Source: Polytrichum commune
Lineage: Eukaryota > Streptophyta > Polytrichopsida > Polytrichales > Polytrichaceae
Length of the DNA stretch: 64,000 nt
Direction: 5' to 3'
NCBI GenBank assembly: GCA_950295325.1
Contig: OX485807.1
Coordinates: forward strand, 43,740,440-43,804,439
The notes under the pieces were generated by a model that worked only from the letters and a program-made list of their open reading frames with translations, searched no databases and was not told the DNA's origin. Numbering within the stretch: the first letter of the stretch is position 1; the number at the start of each line of letters is the position of its first letter. Positions 5,100-34,634 of this stretch are shown here, piece after piece. A program made the translations under genes and the position numbers.

Positions 5100-6232
5100 A
5101 TATTAGCTTCCAAATGCATGGGTGCTACATGTCGAAACAACACAACATTGGGACCAAAGTAGTCTCTTTGGAATTAGCTAAAAGATTAATAAGAAATGGT
5201 TTAAAGAGAGGAGAAAGCCACACCATAAACTTGCTAGAACCACCTACACATCGCAATAGTCTATTAATTCACGATATTGCATGACACAGGGGTCAAACTA
5301 ATCTCTATTGAATTAGCTAAAAGATTACTAAACCTAGTTTTGAGAGAAGACAAAAACTCACACCACGAACATGCTACAACCAACTACATCACATTAGTCT
5401 CCAAGTGCACCATTGGGTGCCACGTGTTGATATGGCTTGGAGGCCAAAAGGCCCACTCTTATGATTAGAGTAGCCCACACTAATTGTGTAACTAGGTAGG
5501 CATTTCACACTACAACTTAGTAAATCTCTCTAATACAAGCTAAGAAGTGAGTAAGAGATGATTTTGGATATAAGACAAAAACTGCACAAGAAACTTACTA
5601 AAACCAGCCCACACATGACATCAAGTAGTCATCAAAAATTGCATCGTTAGATGACACGTGTTGATACAACACCAAAGCCAAATTAGGACAGCCCACTCTT
5701 TCAAATTAGAGTAGTCCACAGTAATTATGTAACTAGTAATGCACTCCACCGTGCAACTTAGCTAATCTCTTCAATATATGAAGCTAAAAGATTAGCAAGA
5801 GATGATTTTGGATATAAGACAAAAGTTGCACTAGAAACTTGCTAAAACCAGCCGCACATCACATCTAGTAGTCTCCAAAAATTGCATTGTTAGATGACAT
5901 GGGTTGATACAACACCAAAGCCAAATTAGGACAACCCACTCTTTCAAATTACAGTAGCCCACACTAATTATGTAACCTGTAATGTACTCCACTATGCAAC
6001 TTAGCTAATCTCTTCAACATATGAAGCTAAAAGATTAGTAAGAGATGATATTGAATATAAGGCAAAAATCACACCAACAACTTGCTAAAACCAACTACAC
6101 ATCAACGTATTAAGTCTCCAAATGCACCGTTGGGTGCCAAGTGTCGATACGACACGGAGGCCAAACTATCAAGGTTCCTCATTCTCTTTCGAAATTAGTG
6201 TAGCCCACACTAATTGCGACACTAGGTAGGTA
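5100..6232. repeat. Tandem array of ~240-bp units
   Basis: About four and a half imperfect units. The landmark 'gccaaa' beside 'cccactctt' recurs near 5442, 5677, 5920 and 6159, with spacings of 235-243 bp. Each unit also carries 'agctaaaagatta.taag', 'acttgctaaaacca' and 'gttgatac.acac'. The centre units are most alike, and the outer ones are more diverged. The array ends abruptly against GC-rich DNA at about 6235. No coding content is seen. Confidence 0.85.
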
Positions 6233-6234
6233 GT

Positions 6235-7419
6235 GTGATGATTCTACACCAGCGAGGGCATCGCCGACGTTGTCGAAGCGATGAGCGGATCCGGGCCGCC
6301 GAGGACTCCCTCACCGATTGGATTCGGTCTTCGCACCTCAACGTGGCGGCCTCATGGATCTTGCGCAAGTTCTTCCTCTCCGCAAATGGACTCCCTCCTC
6401 CGACCATCACAAGTTTGTACAGTATGCCAACTCCTCCTGAGTCAAGTATAATAATGACAATTCAATAAACTTATAAACTACTCGAGCCCATAAGTTCAAC
6501 TCCGAACAGTACTCTCTACTTATTACAAACTCGCAACGGCGATCGGCGAACACTGACGATCCTTCTTGTTCACTTATACGTGCACTCGAAGCGATTCGCG
6601 TGATCGCTTCTGCACGCTTCCCGTTTGTGTCAGCAGTTTTCGTACACTTCCTTTTGTGGTTTACCTGTGGTACATTTTTGGTTTTGCGCTGTTGTGGGGG
6701 ATTAGTTGTGTGTGTTAGGGGTCGAAGGAATTGGGGTTTGATTGAGGAGGGTGAAGGTAGTGGAGGAGAGGGGAAGCAGAGTGACGGTGGATTTTTTATT
6801 CCCATCGTGTTCCAGCTGAGGTGCATTTTTGGTTGAGTGTGAGATTTACCGGAGAGTGGTTGTGTGTTGGCAGGATTTGCCAGATTTACTTGGCGGGATA
6901 GATATGTATATTTGCCGTAACCTGCGCATCACGGATTTCTTTAGTGTAGAGTGGGATTGTTGACTCGCAGGGAGCATGTTTGTTTGTGCGCTTTTGGAGG
7001 TTAGAGAATTGCGATTGGTAAGATTTTAGGTTTAGGATTTGGAGCTCCGGGAGAGGAGCTTGGAAGAATATTGTTAGAAGAAAGGATAGAGGGGGAAGCT
7101 TGCCCGCAGGGGCTTTCCCGCAACGGCGTGGAGGAGGGAGAATTCGCGGGTGAGGCTATCCTCCGCGCCGTCCATCGAGGAGACGGGCCTCGAGGCGGTT
7201 GTCTATGGAGAGCGCCAGCCGCATTACACCACCACCGGCGCTAATAATAATGCTTCCCGAGAGGGCCTGCCATCATACAAGTCCGCAGGGCCAGGAAGCG
7301 GAGGAGGTGGCAGGCCGCCTCGGAATGGCATCCGGGTGGTGGCTGAGAAAGGAGGCGAGAATTTCCACGAAGCCCTAGCAGCGGTGCGTGCTAGCGATGG
7401 AGTCTCCGCAAATGGCAAA
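6235..7419 (+). promoter_or_regulatory. GC-rich upstream region of the Kir-like gene
   Basis: Base composition changes sharply from AT-rich repeats to GC-rich DNA at about 6235. The segment 6235-6420 has open frames on both strands but no recognisable domain, and could be a promoter island or a captured gene fragment. The stretch 6600-7150 looks like promoter plus 5' leader of the gene downstream: it is G/T-rich, and the first exon frame is open from 7090 but lacks an in-frame ATG until 7420. A good donor (gtaaga) lies at 7018 after a short ATG frame starting at 6976, so a leader intron is possible. Confidence 0.45.
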
Positions 7420-10400
7420 ATGGCCAAGCATCAGGATGGCCATGGTGGGGGCGATGATGGTGCCTTGCCACGAGGGAAGAGTACTTCGTGGACGGGCAAA
7501 GTGGAGAACGGGAGACGGACAGCGGAGAATAGCCAATTGCAAAGGACACAGGGTTCAGAAGCTGGGAAGAAAGGTTCGGGTGAATCTTTTGCGGAGGTTT
7601 GGGAGAGATTGACTGTGAAGAATGGAAATAATGCTGATTATCACAACGTAACAACAAATCCTGATGTAAACCTTCCAGAAACCAAGGAGAAAGGAGTGCA
7701 GGTGGGAGCTTCGAATGCAGTAGGAAACCGGCTTGGGAATTCGAGGAGTGATTCTGTGCAGAGGACTGCCAGTTTTAATTTGAAGCTGGATCGGTTATCT
7801 GGGATTGACGAGGGTGATCTTGCTGAGGAATCGGCGGCGTCGACTCCGAGAAGAGCCGATGATCATGATGACCATGCATTTGCGGATGATGGATCGCATC
7901 ACCATGGGGTGAGAGTCGAGTGATTACGTTGCGATGCTTTACATCCATTGATCAGGGGCTAGTCCCACTGTAATAGATTCGTGTGCACTTTTGTGCTCGT
8001 TGTTGTTGTGTGCGTGCGCGTCTATCTTCGTTGAATTCACAAAAACGCAATACTACTAGGGTGTTATAAAAATGGCAGTTGCTGTAAGCTTCTTCACATT
8101 TTAAGCTGGGCTAAGCTGAGGCCCCTTCTACCATAGAGCTGGAGTTGAGAGATTGAGCTTGTAATACTTAGGGGTTTGAGACTGCAAGTATTAAAGCTCA
8201 AACTATTGAGAGCTATCAGGTTTGACAAGGTTTCATCCACAGCTCAACTATTGAGATCTCGACCAATCCTCAAGCTCTCAATGGTTTGAGCAGGTGTAAA
8301 GTGGCCATTCTCAAAGTAAGATATCAAGGGGGCAATGGGACCAAACAAAGTAGAAATTAATGACAAGCCAAAGAATGCTTGAAAGCCCATTGGCTTGGGG
8401 CCCAACGAGATCTCAAACCTCGACATTCATAAGCGACCTTCATGATGAAGCTGAGGATTTTGACTGAGAGCTTGTTGTAGTTGTTCCACATGGGATCCAT
8501 TGAGGCACCATCAAAGTGTTGTGAGGCTGGTAAAAAGTTCAAGCTCTCAAGGGGAACGCTCAAGTGTACAGTGGACTTGAGTGAACTAGCACGAGTAAGA
8601 GGCTCCCTGTCTATGAGAAGGCTTCTTTCTTTGAGCTTTTAACCTCTGCAGTGGAAAGGATTTCGGAGGCTGATATTGTGCATCAAAGTTTGACAGGTGT
8701 TTTGTTGTTGACTGAAATGTTTCAGGCTGATGAAAATCTACCTTCCCCAGGAGGCACCGGGCGATTGCTCCGATCTTCTTCAGCTGCACGAAATAGATGG
8801 CGGCGCCTCAAGCAGACTGTGGCGGTTGCTTCTCAATTTGGTCATTTGAAGTAAATATTCAGTTGCAGAAATCTTTTTGTATGGGACTTGTGTTGACAAG
8901 GCGAGCCTAATTTATCAAATTAGGTTGTAGCATTTTTAGATAGTGGAGAATGATAATGTTTTGGGCAGGTTGCCTTTGTTGTTGTTGTTGTACAATGGTT
9001 TACTGAATAGAGGGGTTACCAATCCCAGGAATAATGCAGCTGATCTTCTCGAGAATGCAGACGACCATCTACAGAGACAAAATAGTAGTGGGGACACTGT
9101 GGTTACAGGCGCAGTAGCTTTTGATGGAGCCAAAACCCCAGCAATACCTCGTAGGAGAGGAAGGAAAGGTATGGATGGTATGCTCGTGCGGCAAGACAAA
9201 AATTTTCTTATCAAAATGCAAGACTCGTATGTGGCGTGTTTGAAGGTTTGTTCCCTCCCCCATCTTATGAGGTCAGACACTGGATTTACAATTTCTGAGC
9301 CTATTGATTCTATTCATTTTTTGTACGGATGATGATGATGTTAGTCCCTAACCATTCAAGAGGCCCTATCTAGGAATCTTCATTCATAAAATTGTGTATT
9401 TGAGCTACATGCTTCCATTTTAGCTAATTGTGTCAAAAGTGACCCTATCTAAAGTTAACTCTATTCTTCAAGTGCACTCTTCAAATCGACTGAATGCCTT
9501 AATGTTGTTGAAAATTTGGGTCTAAATACACAGCCTGGGCCCCACTAGATGCAAATACATACTTAGTATTTCTTATCATCAGTATCCGTATCAGAATTGT
9601 TGTATCTTCTACTGGAGATCAGATAATGCACTAAATTAATTTTCAAACTCATAAATACATGAATATGATTTTAAAACTTGGTGAGTCTTGTAGAAATTGT
9701 ATATATAGGCTGTACATTGAACCCATTTGTCCTCTTAAGGGTTAATGAATCCTACCTGCGAGGGGTTTATCAGATTGCACATTGCCTTTTGAACTAAGTA
9801 TGTATGTATTTATGATTGTATGCACAGATGGCAGATGGTTGTTTTTGTACCTGAAAATTCAAAGATGATGGGTTTTAGGATTATCCAAGATGCCGTTTTA
9901 TTTATTTATTTAATTTTGATGTTGTTTGTCCTGGTCATCAGATGCCTATGGGTCGGTTCCTACTTGGTGTATTTGTGGCACCAGTGTTACTTGGGTTATT
10001 GTTCACTCCTGTATTCTTGCTGGACATGGGAGGTCTTTCCTTCGATGGCTCCAATTTGGCTGAGACATTTCCTGCTGAAAGCCCAGTTGCATCAGCCAAG
10101 CGGCGGTTTTCTGCCGTACTCAATATCTTCCTCTATGCGTATGTCTTCAAACTCTTGATTTTTTGTGGCCCAATGGGGCTTCAACATTTATCTTCAGGTT
10201 GATCGGTTTATTGTTTACCAATGATTCATGTGTGAATTGTTGCATGGGTGGAGACAAAGATTGTTGAGAATTGACGGCACTTTGCTCCAGGTTATCTTTA
10301 TCAACGACATTTGGTGGATCCCCAGTTGCAGCGATGTCACCATTCTGTTTGATGGTGGCTAATATAAATACTCTTATGGCCCAATTTCTTTTTGTCTTTC

Positions 10401-12981
10401 TTAGTGGTGCAGGTGAGCTGCTTTCCCCTTGTTGTTTCAAGCTCAGAATTAGGACATAGCTGTCTAGGTCAATTAGTGACTTCTGTCATGTTCTGCTTTA
10501 AAGTAGCGTGATATGTTTTCTTCCCTAGTCTTCTTGAAACTAATTTCAAATTGTCAGCGATGAAATCAGAACACTAGGAGTGAATATTTAGCAAAGAGGA
10601 GGTTGAATTGTATAGAGCCAATTATTGAGATGTCCTTTCTGAACTACAAAGATTGTTTGCATGTCAACACCATCTATAGCTTTTGGATTCAATTTATTCT
10701 GTGGACCAAGGTGTTTCTGTGGGTATTATGACAGTATTTGCACGAATGTCACAGCCTTCACATCCAGTCAGGTGTTCTAAGAAAGCTATCATCCGCAACG
10801 ATGACTTTCAAACCCTTGAAGGGGAGGAGAAATTCAGGTGAACTGATCACAGATCTGCTGATTGTTGAGGTAGAAGTGTGATGACTATTGTGAACTACAC
10901 TGATCAATATTGAATTTTGGAATGAAGTCAAGGTTTTGTGAAATAATAATTTATAAACTGTACACATATTCTAAGGCAAGCAGGTCTAATTTGGTTATCT
11001 ATCTTAATCAGACACTCAAATTTGAGTGGTGTGTGGTTAGGTGTGGATCTAAGAATGGACACCAAAAAGAAATGTGTTCAAAAGAGATTGGAGTATGTGC
11101 TCAAAATTGCCAACTACTCTAGGTTCACTAGTCAAAATAATTCGGGGGAGCCATCTGATCATTAAAGAAGAATGAGATTCTTCACTTTGATAATGAATAA
11201 GATATTCATATGAGCTCCAAAAATTATGAGGAACTGGCTAAAGCCTCCATTTGGATTTGCTAATCAGAAAGTAACATGTGACTGCACTAATCACATGTTT
11301 AATATCTTTGGAGAAATGGGCTAATCAGAAAAGTAACCATTTAAGACCTGTCTACCTTAGGTAGTGTAGTCTCACATGTATAGGACTTGTAGAGAGGTCT
11401 GTATTGACAAAACTGGTCAAATGGCTTTTGATACGTTTTGCTGCTTTTTCCTTGCAGGGTCTTTGCTGTGCGATTGGTGCTAACTGGTCCTGCTCCTTGT
11501 GAGTTGGTTGATGCAAAGATATGTTTGACATTTCGAATATTTGTCAAGCTACCATCAGGGTCCATGTTTTGTTCAACACAAGATCTTGAACTTGTCCGGC
11601 CTGAGGTAAACCAAGGAATACCAAACAACCTGTTTGATTTTGTGTCTTTTACTGCAGGTTGTATGGGAAGATTCCTGGATGGCCAAGTATTTTGGGCAGT
11701 TCTGAGTAGTTGTAAGTTTCTCGTTTTTATCTGCAATCCTGATTATGGTACTCTGCAGGTCTCGTATTTGCGATATGGTCTGATGGTGAGACACATTATT
11801 GACAGAAAAAGTCCAGTTTATGGTCATACCATGGAATCCTTGATAGAAGGAGATGCTTCCTTTTCTCTTACCGTCATGGGCCTTGAACGCACGTCCATGC
11901 AGCCTATTTTCCATCTAGAGGTGAGTATAGCTAATACTAATGGTTTGTTATTTTCACAAGTTGTTAATTGGAATACGTAATTATTGTACATTGATAAGTG
12001 GGGAAAATGGGGAACTTGATGTTCTAGGCTTTAGAAGTTGCTTAGCACTTGTTTCTGTGGGCCAATCTATAAACCCCAAATCATTTTGGTGAATGGTTTC
12101 ATGCTTTTAATATTGAGAAGTTCAAGTTCTTTCAGTGTTTTGTTCAGTATGTATTTGCAGTGTACAAAAGTAAATATCTTCTAGTCTAGGAGACTTATTT
12201 CTTCTTGACAGGATATTTAAATAGTTACTCAGGTTCACTTATCATGTGGATTTTGAAATTCTGTTGTGCTTTTAGTGTTGGATTTAGAAAAAAATTGAAC
12301 CATCTTGCCCTGGCTTGACTGAATTCGCAGGACTATTTTGTATGTGATAATGATATTGTATGGGATGGAGAATATGAGGAATTTATTCGCATAAATAACA
12401 GTGGACAAAGGGTGTTGGATCACTCCAAGATTGATCTTCTCAAAACTTTTAAGGTGCGATATTCAAGTTTTTTTATCTGATAGAAAGGTTCACGTAGATG
12501 CTAATAAGTGGCAGCAGACTGATGCTTGTTGCTACAGAGTTTCAATTACTTCCTACTTGTGATGTTTCTAGGGTCTGGGGCTTAAGTGTATGTCTTTCAT
12601 AAACATGTAATATGTGAGTTGTTGAAATTAGAGGAGAAGCACTTCTTACTTTATTGATCTTCTTGCACTAGACTTTCTCAATATTTTGAGATTGTTCAGG
12701 CTGCAGGAATGGTGTCGAAGGCAATAACACGGTTGGAGGCAGGTCTTCATAGACAGAAAGATGTTGAGGATAAAGGAAGGCAAAAAGAAGCTGATGTAAA
12801 GGCTCCAGAGTCTGATGCAAATTTAAGTGAAGCTGCTGGAAAGTTAAATGCAGTCGATGGTAAGCCTGTAGATCCCTTACCAGGTTTCCAGCCTGCAAAG
12901 TTCGGGTGGATTGGAGCGCTTCGTACACGCAAGTTATTCAAGTCAAAATCAACCTCTTTCACACGGGCCCCCGATTACTGA
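7420..12981 (+). CDS. Kir/KirBac-type inward-rectifier channel-like protein with TTFGG filter
   Basis: Ten exons: 7420-7908, 8726-8850, 9029-9245 (acceptor could be 8969 or 9011), 9942-10138, 10291-10412, 10735-10837, 11458-11605, 11759-11920, 12331-12453, 12700-12981. All phases close, giving about 655 residues if ATG 7420 is used; the frame is open to 7090, so an upstream start exon is possible. The N-terminal ~230 residues are low-complexity (His/Asp/Gly/Ser). Then comes a Kir-like core: an RRGRK basic stretch, a slide-helix-like segment, TM1 (GRFLLGVFVAPVLLGLLFT), a turret, a pore segment, TM2 and the hallmark VFARMSQPSHPVRCSKKAII. The cytoplasmic immunoglobulin-like domain has LVDAKICLTFRIF, HIIDRKSPVYG and DIVWDGEYEEF. 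The pore reads LSLSTTFGGSPVAAMSP, so the canonical T-V/I-G-Y/F-G filter is absent. In this family a tetramer would conduct K+; whether this one conducts is unknown. The last 94 residues are charged and not part of the Kir fold. Family call is strong, function open. Confidence 0.85.
8095..8655. repeat. Dispersed repeat family E in intron 1 of the Kir-like gene
   Basis: The segment containing 'tgcttgaaagcccattggc' near 8371 recurs near 62231, followed in both by 'caagctctcaa' and an 'atgagaaggcttctttctt/atgagaaggttcctttctt' block. The intron copy also has several 'gagctctcaa/ttgagagct' short inverted motifs. Noncoding, type unknown. It fills most of the 817-bp intron 1. Confidence 0.6.
11030..11370 (+). 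repeat. Dispersed repeat family A, near-complete copy (Kir-like intron 6)
   Basis: Runs from 'gtggttaggtgtgg' through 'accaaaaag', 'aatgaataagatattcat' and 'gagctccaaaaattatgag' to 'aagacctgtctacctta'. It is the same order as the copies at 13760 and 32745, at roughly 300-340 bp. No terminal inverted repeat or poly-A tail was recognised, so the class is undetermined. Confidence 0.7.
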
Positions 12982-13759
12982 ACCTGCAAAAGTGAGGGAT
13001 GATGTGCTCCTTCACTGGTGTAATATTAATTATGTTGAATATTTGCTCGTTGTTGCCTTTGCGATTGCTAGATCAACAATTGAAGACCAGAAAGATGTCT
13101 CCTGCCACCATTTTGTCCTAATAGCAGTTTTCTAATCAGTGAACTTGCTGAGCTATTAATGGTGCACAGGGCCACCCTTGATATTGACATTCAGAATTCT
13201 TGAATAAAGCTCCTGGGAGGTTGTAATATATGCTCATTGAAGGATTTACAACTGGTACTGGGAATGGACATTTACTGAGGTTTGGTTGTGATGGCTTAGC
13301 TAAATGTTGTTTAGTTCTTGTCAAGATCAACCTTCTGTCATGGATATTGTCTATTGTACCTTATGGACGTCAAGTATTTGTTGCAGCTTGGGGAAGTTTG
13401 CTGACTTCAATGCTGGAAGCATCTCAGCGTTTGTTTTGGGACAAAAGCTTGAAATAGGGGTAAAATGCTGTAATGGAAAACTCATTCTTATATACTGAAT
13501 GTTCATAGATTTCATATCTTCCATGTTCTCAAGGTGAGCAAGGCCTCAGCATCCCCAAAATGGTTGAGGCAGGACCAATTCCTAATATGCATGCCTAATG
13601 GTTTTACATCAAATTGGATTCTCCATTTTTTATATTTGAAATAGACGCACAGGACTTGGGGGACATGAGTTGTGTTTCCTAGTGGCCTTTGAATTTCAGC
13701 TTGGATAGTTCGTAGGCAGCCTCTGTATGTAAGGTAGACAATCCTTTTCAGGTTACTTT
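12982..13759 (+). other. Probable 3' UTR and flank of the Kir-like gene
   Basis: Follows the TGA-less stop TAA/TGA region after codon APDY. It contains short open frames only and no second gene. The transcript end cannot be placed from sequence alone. Confidence 0.4.
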
Positions 13760-14075
13760 TCTTTTTAGGACACCTACATTTGGTGTAGCTCCAAGAATAG
13801 ATACCAAAAAGACATATCTTCAAACGAGTTTGGATGCTCCCAATATGATAACCATTCTGGACTTAATAGTCAACATAGCTGTGGGGACCTCTATGACTAT
13901 TTAATGAGCATAAGAATCTTTATTTTGATAATGAATAAGATATTTATATGATCCCCAAAAATCATGAGCAAAGTGAATACAATCTTGATTTGGATCTGCT
14001 AACCATCTTGTATGCATTGTGTGTTCAATATCCTAGAAGTTGGAAAGAATAACCCTTAAAAACCCGTCTACCTTA
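13760..14075 (+). repeat. Dispersed repeat family A copy
   Basis: Shows 'gtagctccaagaatagataccaaaaagacat', 'aatagtcaacata', 'tttaatgagcat', 'aatgaataagatattta' fragments in the same order as the 11030 and 32745 copies, ending 'acccgtctacctta'. Moderately diverged. Confidence 0.7.
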
Positions 14076-16779
14076 TTAATGTTTTGTCCATGACACCAGC
14101 ACCTATTATTGAGTGGAAGGGATTAATGTGAAAACTACGAAAGCCTTGATACAGTTTCCTATACGGTATCACAGTTTCCTCTCTGAGAAGAATTTAACTC
14201 AAAACACTTTCTCTATCATACTGTGCAAGGCAAAGTCCCAATGAACTGAACATGAACGAAAGATTTCAAAAAGAAAAATTCAGACATTTCATGTTTATGG
14301 CTTTCAACTGATCAGTGCAGATGCCAGGCAAGTAAAAGACATTGCAAAATTGTGTCTGCCCAAGCAAAAATACTATGCCTATGCTGGAAAAGAGACTTGT
14401 ATTTATCTACGTATGTCTCTAATTGATGCGCACATCCAAATTCAAATATAAAGGGCAACTCTCTGAGTCTAGTTTTGATCCCGTCTTGACCCTTGAGTTC
14501 ATTGTGAACCCTGTACTCATATATATGGTTGGTGAGCCATCATTCATTAATCCTTCTCACAGCTTTGAGAGGAATTGAAGGCTCCATAATACCATGTGCA
14601 TCGTTATTTCAATCCTAAATCTTGGAGAATCTGATCCCCTCAATCATGTCTATTGAAATGTGTGTGTTCAAATCTTCATTTCAGATCAAACCCCAGAAGT
14701 AGGGTTGGCATCAAAGCTGTTGGCAGACAACATCGCAGAACCGGTCTCTTCTTGTGGTTGTTGCCACTGCAGAAGGCTAATTCGTAGAGTCATTGAAGTA
14801 TAACTCCTCCAGAAATTGTTGCAGTGATTCTTGGTGGTGTCAAGGAGTTAAGAATTTCGACAACCATGGATCAGTCTACATAACCTTTGTTCTTGTGAGT
14901 GTTGTACATGTACGTCAGTTTTGTTGTGGCTTCTTTTCGTAGATGTAGTTTTCTACTCTAGAAGTCTAATCCCAAGGCTGTGAGGTTGCTGGAGGCATCG
15001 AACCCCTAAACGCTCAAGCCTTCACATTCCATTTTCGGGCATTTCCAGCACATGTGTTGAAAATTTATGTTATGTAGCAAAATAGACTTTGTTTTCTTGA
15101 ATTCCAACTGTACGGGCATGAACTAGACTACCATGTATTCTTTTTGAAATTTTTTTGAGTCAATTCGACCACACTCTATGTTAGATTGACATATGAATAG
15201 GGCTTTCATCTGGTGGTGGGTGGGGGGGGGGGGCAACTATAGATAATTTTGAACTTTTTTGTTTCATGCTCGAATTCGGTCATGTCACAAATTGTAGAAA
15301 GTTGGCAACTTTGCCATAATAAGTTATGTGGATGACAAATGAGTTACTTAAAAACTTTTTTTTTTTGAGCAAATTTAGATGAAGTCTGTCACCCCCAAAG
15401 TTGGAGGGGCCACATGATGTCATTTTGCGAGATTTCCCCTTTTTCATGGAGCAAGCAACATGTGCACTCATTCTTTTCCAAATCCATCGGGTCAAATTAT
15501 GCACAACTGTCACCTTGTCCTAACATGAAAATAAATCCACGCAAATTAGGCATCATATGTGAAAGACATTGGCTCTTAAATTTGGGCAGCACATGGAACT
15601 GCCTCCCAAAATAAACAACGCCAACCTAACAAAAAATCCTACATGCTTGGAATACGAGGGTTTCATATGTTATTCTGGCTCACATGATAGTGGGCAACCA
15701 CCCTATACCAATAGATACCTTCCATACATGGAGATTGCCACCTAGTGGGCCGCAAACCCCATCAGAATATTAGGTGGCGACCCTTTTCAAGTTGCATGAG
15801 CATTTAAGGGTTAAGCATATGACCCAATGATTTTTGTTGGTGTTGACGAGTAAGACTAGTAAGAATTTTGATAAGCCTTATACCTACCTTTGTTCTTGGC
15901 AATGTAGCATAGTTCTATTGTTGTGGCTGAATCTTCCTGATAGATCTCTACTCCAGAAGGCTAATCCAAAGGTAGTAGTTTGCATAAGCATTTCTAACTA
16001 TTCTTAGAATCCAACTTTAACATTTGTAACTTTAGTCAAGCCACCATAGTGTGGTGTACATCAATGCATATCCCAGTTATCCTGGTGGCACCACCTTCCC
16101 TAACCCCACGCCACATAGGATCATTGAAGCCCTTGCATGAAACTTGGTAAATTAATAGATCATATGCACCATGACTAGTGGTGCATTTCTTTTTAATTTA
16201 TTTTAAAATACGCATTTTAAAATGCATTTTAAAGTACTCAGAAAATTTTGAGGCATTTTTAAAGTTTTTTATTATAAATTCACAACTATAGTCAATCCTA
16301 GTCAGTAGGGCAAATATAAACACGCTCAACTTCGCCATTTGTTCCATATTACCATATAACATTAGTACATTCAAACTCAATGGCAGTGTCTAAGCCTTGA
16401 GTGTTGCCACATGAACTGACAAATACTAGAATACATAACGCACCACATGGCACACTGGTCAAGTTGTGAATGCTGATTTGCATTTGCAATGTCTTCATTC
16501 TTGGATCAATACTTGGGCAGAGAAGAGCTCGAAGAACTGATCTTAGAAGAAAAAAAATATTTTCGACAATGATTTGTCATAAGGACCTCACGAATTGATG
16601 TCTCCGATAATTTTCAATAAAAAACATAAAAAAACATTTTTAAACATTTTATAATGCTGCCTCCGACCTCTAGAATAAAAAATGCAACACTAATCATGAC
16701 GGATCATATGCACCATGTCCTTGACCACACAAGGCCCATTCACAACTAAGAATCCCTTGCAGTCTGTGCTATCAATTAA
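14076..16779. other. Intergenic region without a recognisable gene
   Basis: No convincing coding exon on either strand. It holds a G12 homopolymer at 15222-15233. Two loosely similar stretches near 14770-14990 and 15880-15990 share 'gaaggctaat' and 'ctttgttctt', which suggests an old unclassified repeat. A short AT-rich stretch with repeated 'ttttaaa' lies at 16195-16270. Confidence 0.5.
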
Positions 16780-33222: not shown

Positions 33223-34482
33223 CTAGCTGGGAGGTGGGCAATCTGCAGAGTTTGAATATGGAGGTGGAGGTGAAGATTCAGATGGCCACTTCCACTTGTC
33301 ACCACCCTTCGGTGGAGGTGAAGATTCAGATGGCCACTTCCACTTGTCACCACCCTTCGGTGGAGGTGAAGATTCAAATGGCCACTTCCACTTGTCACCA
33401 TCTTTCGGTGGAGGTGAAGACTTGTCGCCCCAGACAGGAGCCACAGGAATAGTTGGCAGAGGAACGAACGGCACACTGAATGGAGGCATGATAAACTTGA
33501 ACGGGGGAGGAGGAGGAGCGGCTACTGTGCAATCTTTACACTTCGGTGGAGGTGGAGATGATTCCCCGTATGTTGGTGGAGGTGGAGATGATTCCCCGTA
33601 TGTTGGTGGAGGTGGAGATGATTCCCCGTATGTTGGTGGAGGTGGAGATGATTCCTCGTACGTTGGTGGAGGTGGAGACTTGTCCTCATGCTTTGGTGGA
33701 GGTGGCGACTTGTCCTCATGCTTTGGTGGAGGTGGAGATGATTCCCCGTATGTTGGTGGAGGTGGAGATGATTCCTCGTACGTTGGTGGAGGTGGAGACT
33801 TGTCGTCATGCTTTGGTGGAGGTGGAGATGATTCCCCGTATGTTGGTGGAGGTGGAGATGATTCCTCGTACGTTGGTGGAGGTGGAGACTTGTCGTCATG
33901 CTTTGGTGGAGGTGGAGATGATTCCTCGTACGTTGGTGGAGGTGGAGACTTGTCGTCATGCTTTGGTGGAGGTGGAGATGATTCCCCGTATGTTGGTGGA
34001 GGTGGAGATGATTCCTCGTACGTTGGTGGAGGTGGAGACTTGTCCTCATGCTTTGGTGGAGGTGGAGATGATTCCCCGTATGTTGGTGGAGGTGGAGATG
34101 ATTCCTCGTACGTTGGTGGAGGTGGAGATGATTCCTCGTACATTGGTGGAGGTGGAGATGATTCCTCGTACATTGGTGGACTAGGGCTACCATAGCCATC
34201 AGGAGGGGGAGTAGATTCCCACTGGCCACTAGGTGGAGGTGGTGAAAGATCACCAACCCCTCCCCACCCGGGAGAGCTGCATCCCGAACAACCTGCGGGG
34301 GAAGCTGGGGGTGGAGGAGGACAGTCAGAATCAGAGTTGCCGTAGCCGGAATTGTCCAGCAACACCCTCGACGTAGCTAGTGCAGGCGTTACAGCTAATT
34401 GAGCTACAAGAATGACAGCCACCAACACTGCAGCAATGGGGCGGAGAGATTGTGGAGGCGGAACTGCAGGCGCTATCAACAT
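33223..34482 (-). CDS. Extensin-like Ser-Pro4 cell-wall protein
   Basis: One uninterrupted frame of 419 residues from ATG 34482, which directly precedes a hydrophobic signal peptide (about residues 17-35, ending ...TPALATS). In-frame ATGs at 34560, 34548 and 34596 exist; the TATA box at about 34622 makes 34596 unlikely to be transcribed, but 34560 is possible. The mature protein has a CSGC-containing N-terminal part, then about 21 decapeptides of the form SPPPP + TYEES, TYGES, KHEDK or KHDDK, then three SSPPPKxGDKWKWP units and a Cys-containing tail. Ser-Pro4 is the motif hydroxylated and arabinosylated in extensins, and such proteins are secreted to the wall. The Y-x-Y crosslink motif is absent; single Tyr residues alternate with acidic and basic cassettes. 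Best described as extensin-like or a proline-rich hybrid. The repeated DNA makes exact repeat number assembly-sensitive. Confidence 0.85.
   Translation of the reverse strand: MLIAPAVPPPQSLRPIAAVLVAVILVAQLAVTPALATSRVLLDNSGYGNSDSDCPPPPPASPAGCSGCSSPGWGGVGDLSPPPPSGQWESTPPPDGYGSPSPPMYEESSPPPPMYEESSPPPPTYEESSPPPPTYGESSPPPPKHEDKSPPPPTYEESSPPPPTYGESSPPPPKHDDKSPPPPTYEESSPPPPKHDDKSPPPPTYEESSPPPPTYGESSPPPPKHDDKSPPPPTYEESSPPPPTYGESSPPPPKHEDKSPPPPKHEDKSPPPPTYEESSPPPPTYGESSPPPPTYGESSPPPPTYGESSPPPPKCKDCTVAAPPPPPFKFIMPPFSVPFVPLPTIPVAPVWGDKSSPPPKDGDKWKWPFESSPPPKGGDKWKWPSESSPPPKGGDKWKWPSESSPPPPYSNSADCPPPS
33541..34180 (-). repeat. 30-bp coding minisatellite of the extensin-like gene
   Basis: About 21 units of 30 bp, each encoding one decapeptide. 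They are organised partly into 90-bp higher-order units (TYEES-TYGES-KHxDK). Because 30 is a multiple of three, other frames on both strands stay open through it, which produces long spurious frames. Confidence 0.95.
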
Positions 34483-34617
34483 CTTCAAGAAATTAGTACT
34501 ACAGTGGTAACTTGTGTCTACTTCCAACTCCCTTTGAATCCTCTTCATGATGACGAGCATGAAGGTGTTGTAAGACTTGCAGTAGCTGTAAATCATGATG
34601 AAGAGGGAATCGGACCT

Positions 34618-34634
34618 GGAAGCTTATATAGTGC
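34618..34634 (-). promoter_or_regulatory. TATA box of the extensin-like gene
   Basis: The minus strand reads CACTATATAAGC here. Transcription would be expected about 30 bp downstream, near 34590, giving a leader of roughly 110 nt before the preferred start codon at 34482. Confidence 0.6.

Follow-up and report, generated by a model that had tools for sequence, protein, structure and literature searches.

The Kir fold with a replaced selectivity filter is already known from bacteria and from a trypanosome. NirBac1.1 and NirBac1.2 are bacterial Kir homologues with replaced P-loops, which assemble into stable oligomers and conduct monovalent cations almost indiscriminately; Na+, K+ and Rb+ permeate with little preference, the anionic lipid POPG activates the channels, and close NirBac relatives may bear unrelated P-loops (PMC4607889). 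TbIRK of Trypanosoma brucei has the filter GGYVG in place of the K+ signature, yet shows a pK/pNa of >7, and its mutation G132A reduced the selectivity for K+ over Na+ (PMC5429665). The filter of cyclic-nucleotide-gated (CNG) channels, TIGETPPP, has been placed in NaK (PMC5052707). In plants, the TM-P-TM protein KCO3 has been termed Kir-like (PMC8619664), and originated through a deletion in TPK2 (PMC3410407). An inventory of K+ transporters in a moss and a lycophyte, published in 2012, sought TPKs by their characteristic pore-forming region, and states that TM-P-TM K+ channel genes appear to be absent from both P. patens and S. moellendorffii (PMC3410407). The table of plant K+ and anion channels in a 2024 review has no Kir column, but covers selected channel types only and carries little weight here (PMC11617655). 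No plant report of Kir channels was found in the open-licence literature.

Here we analysed a window of 64,000 nucleotides from the 408-Mb genome of the moss Polytrichum commune. It contains one of four genes that make up a plant branch within the Kir superfamily. Sequence homology shows the Kir fold; in place of the K+ filter stands another sequence, which is kept by selection. The family thus represents a new variant of the replaced-filter Kir, in a plant. The gene lies on the + strand of contig C5, from at or before window position 7090 to 12981, and was modelled with ten exons, of which all nine introns have GT-AG borders. The frame is continuous, as the original prediction had it, over this ten-exon model, for which no start codon was located.

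Exon 1 (7090-7908) encodes an N-terminal region whose frame is open up to the GT donor and whose 5' limit is not placed; it shares 35% identity (E 6e-27) with the first open frame of the paralogue on contig C2. It opens with the motif ARRG..TAW.REN.R..LSS.PS.EETGL (7090-7260), which is common to the C2 paralogue. Because no in-frame ATG precedes this conserved motif in either the window or the C2 open frame, a short 5' exon is probably still to be found. Exons 2 to 9 all have AG/GT borders. Exon 2 (8726-8850) matches the C2 locus over 33 residues (61%). Exon 3 (8969-9245) ends in the stretch LIKMQDSYVACLK (9207-9245), which we take to be the slide helix; in the hhalign alignment, QDSYVACLK of the window protein faces the start of the KirBac rows, D.YH.LL. 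Exon 4 (9942-10138) contains TM1 (GVFVAPVLLGLLFTPVFLL, 9966-10022), the turret and the start of the pore helix, with a hydropathy of 2.37. Exon 5 (10291-10412), 90% identical to its C2 counterpart, provides the end of the pore helix, the filter region and TM2 (CLMVANINTLMAQFLFVFLSGA, 10346-10411). Exon 6 (10735-10837) encodes VFARMSQPSHPVRCSKKAIIR, the linker between TM2 and the cytoplasmic domain, which phmmer aligned to IYARFTRP...FSSRMVI of KirBac. The cytoplasmic Kir domain, as aligned by both phmmer and hhalign, extends over exon 7 (11458-11605), exon 8 (11759-11920; motif VRHIIDRKSPVYGHTMESL) and exon 9 (12331-12453), where it terminates at CDNDIVWDGEYEEF...VLDHSKI. Exon 10 (12700-12981), preceded by an AG acceptor, encodes a C-terminal tail ending in SKSTSFTRAPDY and a stop codon; the tail of the C2 paralogue ends in SKSTSFTREPDW and a stop codon.

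The filter is assembled across the junction of exons 4 and 5. Exon 4 ends at 10138 (ATGC/GTATGT) and exon 5 has the borders CTCCAG/GTTATC and GCAG/GTGAGC; the joined exons read ...FLYALSLSTTFGGSPVAAMSPFCLMVANINTLMAQFLFVFLSGA, followed by VFARMSQPSHP in exon 6. The exon 4-5 junction of the original prediction is real, with GT-AG borders. At the site of the KirBac/Kir signature T-[IV]-G-Y-G, the spliced gene reads LSLSTTFGGSPVAAMSPF, with TTFGGSP (10304-10324, + strand) at the K+ filter position according to phmmer, MAFFT and hhalign, the residue pairing varying by alignment. TM2 and the VFAR motif follow at the distance expected for Kir, as had been claimed.

Homology search placed the window protein among the Kir channels over its whole pore and cytoplasmic domain. 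Alignment by hhalign against 12 bacterial Kirs covered 254 columns, which begin at the slide helix and run to where the cytoplasmic domain ends, with a probability of 99.9 and an E-value of 2.7e-31. A phmmer search with the window protein matched KirBac3.1 at 1.4e-10, and a profile of the four paralogues did so at 1e-14. KirBac3.1 and KirBac1.1 are the best relatives of solved structure across both parts; they share ~21-28% identity with the plant family, and KirBac3.1 has the filter TIGYG. In the phmmer alignment with KirBac3.1 and the MAFFT alignment of bacterial pores, TIGYG faces TFGGS, such that the threonine and the first glycine are kept, the tyrosine is replaced by glycine and the second glycine by serine. 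In the hhalign alignment, of which the profile takes in the shorter GLQPE filter as well as TTFGGSP, the residues TF instead form a two-residue insertion and GGSP faces IGYG. The original prediction that the alignment position is secure is therefore upheld for the filter region, on which the three programs agree, and not for the residue-by-residue pairing, which is less certain. Its central claim, that a Kir-type gene has had its K+ filter replaced, is confirmed by the spliced frame: GYG is absent from the window filter under every pairing.

Profile and pattern searches gave a consistent picture. Two strong hydrophobic helices were found in each of the four members, and the window and C2 genes also show a weak hydropathy peak at the pore helix (1.42 and 1.49, against a cut-off of 1.4). 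The Pfam model IRK_C matched all four at E<=1, the best at 5.1e-7, with the window protein falling under the curated cut-off, and the transmembrane model PF01007 matched none of them among the matches listed. Ion_trans_2 was likewise unmatched at E<=1 in the four members, and a cyclic-nucleotide-binding domain in the window protein (675 residues) and the cores, among the Pfam matches listed; NCBIfam returned nothing relevant for the four cores. Thus, the family shows TM1-P-TM2 and cytoplasmic Kir domain homology, but neither Ion_trans_2 plus the canonical filter of TPK/KCO channels nor the six-transmembrane plan plus nucleotide-binding domain of CNG channels. T-x-G-[YF]-G is missing from all filters, which read TTFGGSP in two genes and STGLQPE in the other two; nor does any of them contain GGYVG of TbIRK. 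A hidden exon that restores T-x-G-Y-G was also sought, and a six-frame search covering window 7000-15000 together with the loci of the three paralogues found no pore-like T/S-x-G-[YFLVIMW]-G. A loose filter pattern gave four chance matches at the four plant loci, all with stop codons nearby and outside any pore-like context, and this candidate is rejected.

When the genome was searched with the window protein, 25 matches reached E<=10; each of four loci accounted for six of them, and the last, a weak one (0.02), fell in a fifth gene, a canonical Kir. Beside the window gene (C5), three paralogues have intact Kir cores. They were spliced by hand, with frames modelled over the Kir core, and the far N-terminal part was modelled in the window gene only; at all four loci the introns have AG/GT borders and the frames are intact over the modelled exons. 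The C2 paralogue (19.03 Mb) reads LSLSTTFGGSPVVALSPF and shares the filter LSLSTTFGGSP with the window gene. The paralogues on C7 (26.19 Mb) and C1 (47.75 Mb) both read LSLSTGLQPELAPLSPY, with the GLQPE-type filter STGLQPELAPLSPY in common. Core identity is 83.5% for C5/C2, 68.2% for C7/C1 and 46.1% for C5/C7. Between C5 and C7, conservation is highest in TM2 (68%) and the P-loop (62.5%), followed by TM1 (47%) and the core (46%), and is lost in the turret (5%); the segments of C2 and C1 follow the same order. A comparison of the three introns around exons 4 and 5 between C5 and C2 turned up a single common 12-base word (E 0.12); a laxer gapped blastn of the whole loci spanned some introns at ~63% identity, e.g. 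window 10288-10839, and some introns of the two genes may thus be similar. One neighbouring open frame was tried for C5/C2 synteny, and no second copy was found in the genome at E<=1e-6.

Both filter types are under purifying selection. By NG86, the C5/C2 core has a dN of 0.112 and a dS of 1.05, and the filter (18 codons) a dN of 0.054 and a dS of 1.43; the C7/C1 core has a dN of 0.222 and a dS of 2.30, and the filter a dN of 0. Saturation is close once dS exceeds 1, and YN00 gave values for only part of the segments; the ratios are therefore rough, but their direction is clear. The two GLQPE copies differ at 14 nucleotides and at no amino acid in the filter stretch. When the observed number of substitutions was placed at random, as few amino-acid changes arose in 0 of 20,000 runs for the C7/C1 filter (17 codons), in 2 of 20,000 for the C5/C2 filter (18 codons) and in 36 of 20,000 for the ten codons of SLSTTFGGSP in C5/C2. 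The suggested dN/dS check thus points to purifying selection on core and filter alike and, together with the three intact paralogues, bears out the claim that the locus is not in simple decay. In favour of a pseudogene, a mis-spliced model or an assembly error are the start codon, which was not located, the IRK_C score of the window protein below the cut-off and the lack of PF01007 among the matches listed. Four loci with intact modelled frames and AG/GT borders, the selection on them and the six-frame search, which found no hidden canonical pore exon at these loci, make such an origin extremely improbable. Sequencing error, assembly error or chance is similarly rejected as very unlikely for the filter itself, given the identical LSLSTTFGGSP in C2, the purifying selection and the outcome of the six-frame search.

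The four plant proteins probably pass ions other than K+, or none. We propose that the window protein acts as a poorly selective cation pore, a best guess which falls just short of an even chance. Homology shows that it retains the slide helix, both transmembrane helices, the pore helix and the cytoplasmic Kir domain; we infer a tetramer, and likewise conduction, its selectivity, the membrane and the ligand. In the T-F-G-G-S-P filter of the window and C2 genes, the retained threonine and first glycine could provide the inner K+-like sites only, and the outer sites would be gone, with the tyrosine and second glycine replaced by glycine and serine and then followed by proline. The resulting layout, T-x-G-x-[ST]-P, would match that of the cyclic-nucleotide-gated TIGETP. 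Such a pore might be gated via the Kir cytoplasmic domain, perhaps by an anionic lipid as in NirBac, and in the GLQPE pair an otherwise shared scaffold would bear a filter of a second design. The KirBac homology across TM1, pore, TM2 and cytoplasmic domain, the two strong helices in all four members, the P-loop and TM2 as the best conserved of the segments compared between the pairs, the purifying selection on the filters and the precedent of NirBac1.1 and 1.2 (PMC4607889) all argue for this proposal. The CNG-like layout, however, depends on the phmmer/MAFFT pairing, from which hhalign departs, and is seen in only 2 of the 4 genes, as GLQPE does not fit it. Moreover, TM2 lacks an acidic residue and so gives no sign of cation attraction there, the loop would also be conserved if it served as a plug or as an interaction surface, and TbIRK prefers K+ despite its missing signature (PMC5429665).

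Alternatively, the protein may have the Kir fold but conduct nothing, and either sense a lipid or ligand or, as a regulatory subunit, join other subunits such as the canonical Kir or a paralogue and silence or retune them. The loss of the K+ ladder, the tolerance of one scaffold for two unrelated filters and the unconserved turret between pairs (5%) are compatible with it, as are the extra N-terminal sequence and the C-terminal tail of C5 and C2 past the aligned KirBac rows, and a canonical Kir in the same genome offers a possible partner. Since a dead pore might lose constraint, the best-kept position of the P-loop and TM2 tells against this reading, which we consider unlikely although worth serious attention. 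Still less probable is that the unorthodox filter selects for K+, as in TbIRK. TTFGGS also has a glycine pair beside an aromatic residue, but its residue pattern is unlike GGYVG and the GLQPE pair has a single glycine. The loss of the last glycine of the K+ signature usually lowers selectivity, which further argues against such a channel. The original prediction had named a non-selective pore, a non-conducting scaffold or a sensor without preferring any of them. Altogether, the NirBac fluxes, the K+ preference of TbIRK and the CNG-like layout lead us to place the non-selective pore first, the non-conducting protein second and the unorthodox K+ channel third. More tentatively, the four genes may represent an unrecognised plant Kir lineage that lost the filter before the four-gene duplications and then fixed TFGGSP and GLQPE, giving Kir-gated non-selective and possibly Ca2+-permeable cation channels that inventories based on the signature have missed.

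Compared to NirBac1.1, 1.2 and 2.1, the plant family shares the Kir plan of TM1-P-TM2 and cytoplasmic domain, the replaced signature and the unrelated P-loops among close relatives; Kir architecture with a replaced P-loop filter is what defines the NirBac type in PMC4607889. NirBac channels are, however, bacterial and have other filters (TTGTD in NirBac2.1), and flux has been measured for 1.1 and 1.2 (PMC4607889), whereas the plant genes, known from sequence, contain introns and encode extra N-terminal sequence; the likeness is drawn from the published description. TbIRK, also set against the family by description, is likewise a eukaryotic Kir relative without TxGYG that was found through a family profile rather than the signature, but it has GGYVG, is K+-selective and belongs to the acidocalcisome. 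TPK and KCO3 are plant pore-loop channels as well, from which the window family differs in having a Kir cytoplasmic domain and no Ion_trans_2 among the matches listed. CNG channels have six transmembrane helices and a nucleotide-binding domain, in contrast to the two helices and Kir domain of the plant family; the resemblance of TFGGSP to TIGETPPP under the phmmer/MAFFT pairing is confined to a short stretch and may reflect convergence or have arisen by chance.

Channel inventories often search by the pore signature, which the four-gene family lacks. A genome-wide search with PF01007 and PF17655 found the canonical Kir only, and automatic annotation could therefore miss the four genes. The genome holds both a canonical Kir and a signature-less Kir family, and inventories of other plants may have overlooked such genes as well. 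If the family conducts, it would offer a natural experiment in which one genome has rebuilt the filter in two ways while the scaffold stayed the same, and it would be a candidate for cation conductances of plants that have no known gene.

The canonical Kir (contig C2, near 27.066 Mb; L001:484-2019, - strand) is one uninterrupted open frame of 511 codons with the filter SMTIGYGG. Its best solved matches are eukaryotic Kir channels, with ATP-sensitive inward rectifier 11 (Kir6.2) at the top (9.8e-37). The genome also contains several SBP-domain genes (16 exon matches), a family which to our knowledge is confined to green plants.

Bacterial Kirs served as a control. The set comprised 60 loci, 36 from a KirBac-led alignment scan of prokaryotic genome contigs and 24 from phylum searches, of which L051 and L053, lacking a pore, were dropped; G-[YF]-G was present in 57 of the 58 readable pores (56 GYG and one GFG). 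The KirBac-led alignment found no loci in viral contigs. Scans of the prokaryotic and viral contigs with the plant alignment, seeded by two short peptide patterns and hence not exhaustive, found no relative. Phylum-wide profile searches, one centred on a cyanobacterium and the other on a myxobacterium, gave hits in 50 of 292 and 72 of 235 genomes, respectively, the centre genome counted in each (best E 1e-22), and all 24 loci read out of the 137 matches listed have G-Y-G. In a tree of 63 rows (58 bacterial sequences, the four plant genes and the canonical Kir, L051 and L053 left out), the plant family of four comes out as a single group supported at 100/100, on a very long branch of 2.79 changes per column; warnings were raised for the long branch of L057 and the composition of C1 and L057. 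With so long a plant branch, the tree is compatible with a source in cyanobacteria, in other bacteria or in an old eukaryotic lineage.

The one exception among the 58 readable bacterial pores, an alphaproteobacterial Kir homologue (L052:1066-1833, + strand), has STLGFNE in place of T-x-G-Y-G and is a possible further NirBac-type channel. Elsewhere in the window, a 466-codon open frame (33226-34623, - strand) and a 322-codon frame of the + strand overlap; the former matched no Pfam model at E<=0.01, and a search for a second copy at E<=1e-6 found none. Several near-repeats like agctaaaagattagtaagagatgatttt...gacaaaa were seen by eye upstream of the gene (5160-6230). The third-to-last upstream frames of the C7 paralogue (L016:5575-6585 and L016:4554-5345, both - strand) contain repeats like VAELPSKVVELPSKIAELPVKV and STAA.V.ESV.STA, which perhaps form long amphipathic helices.
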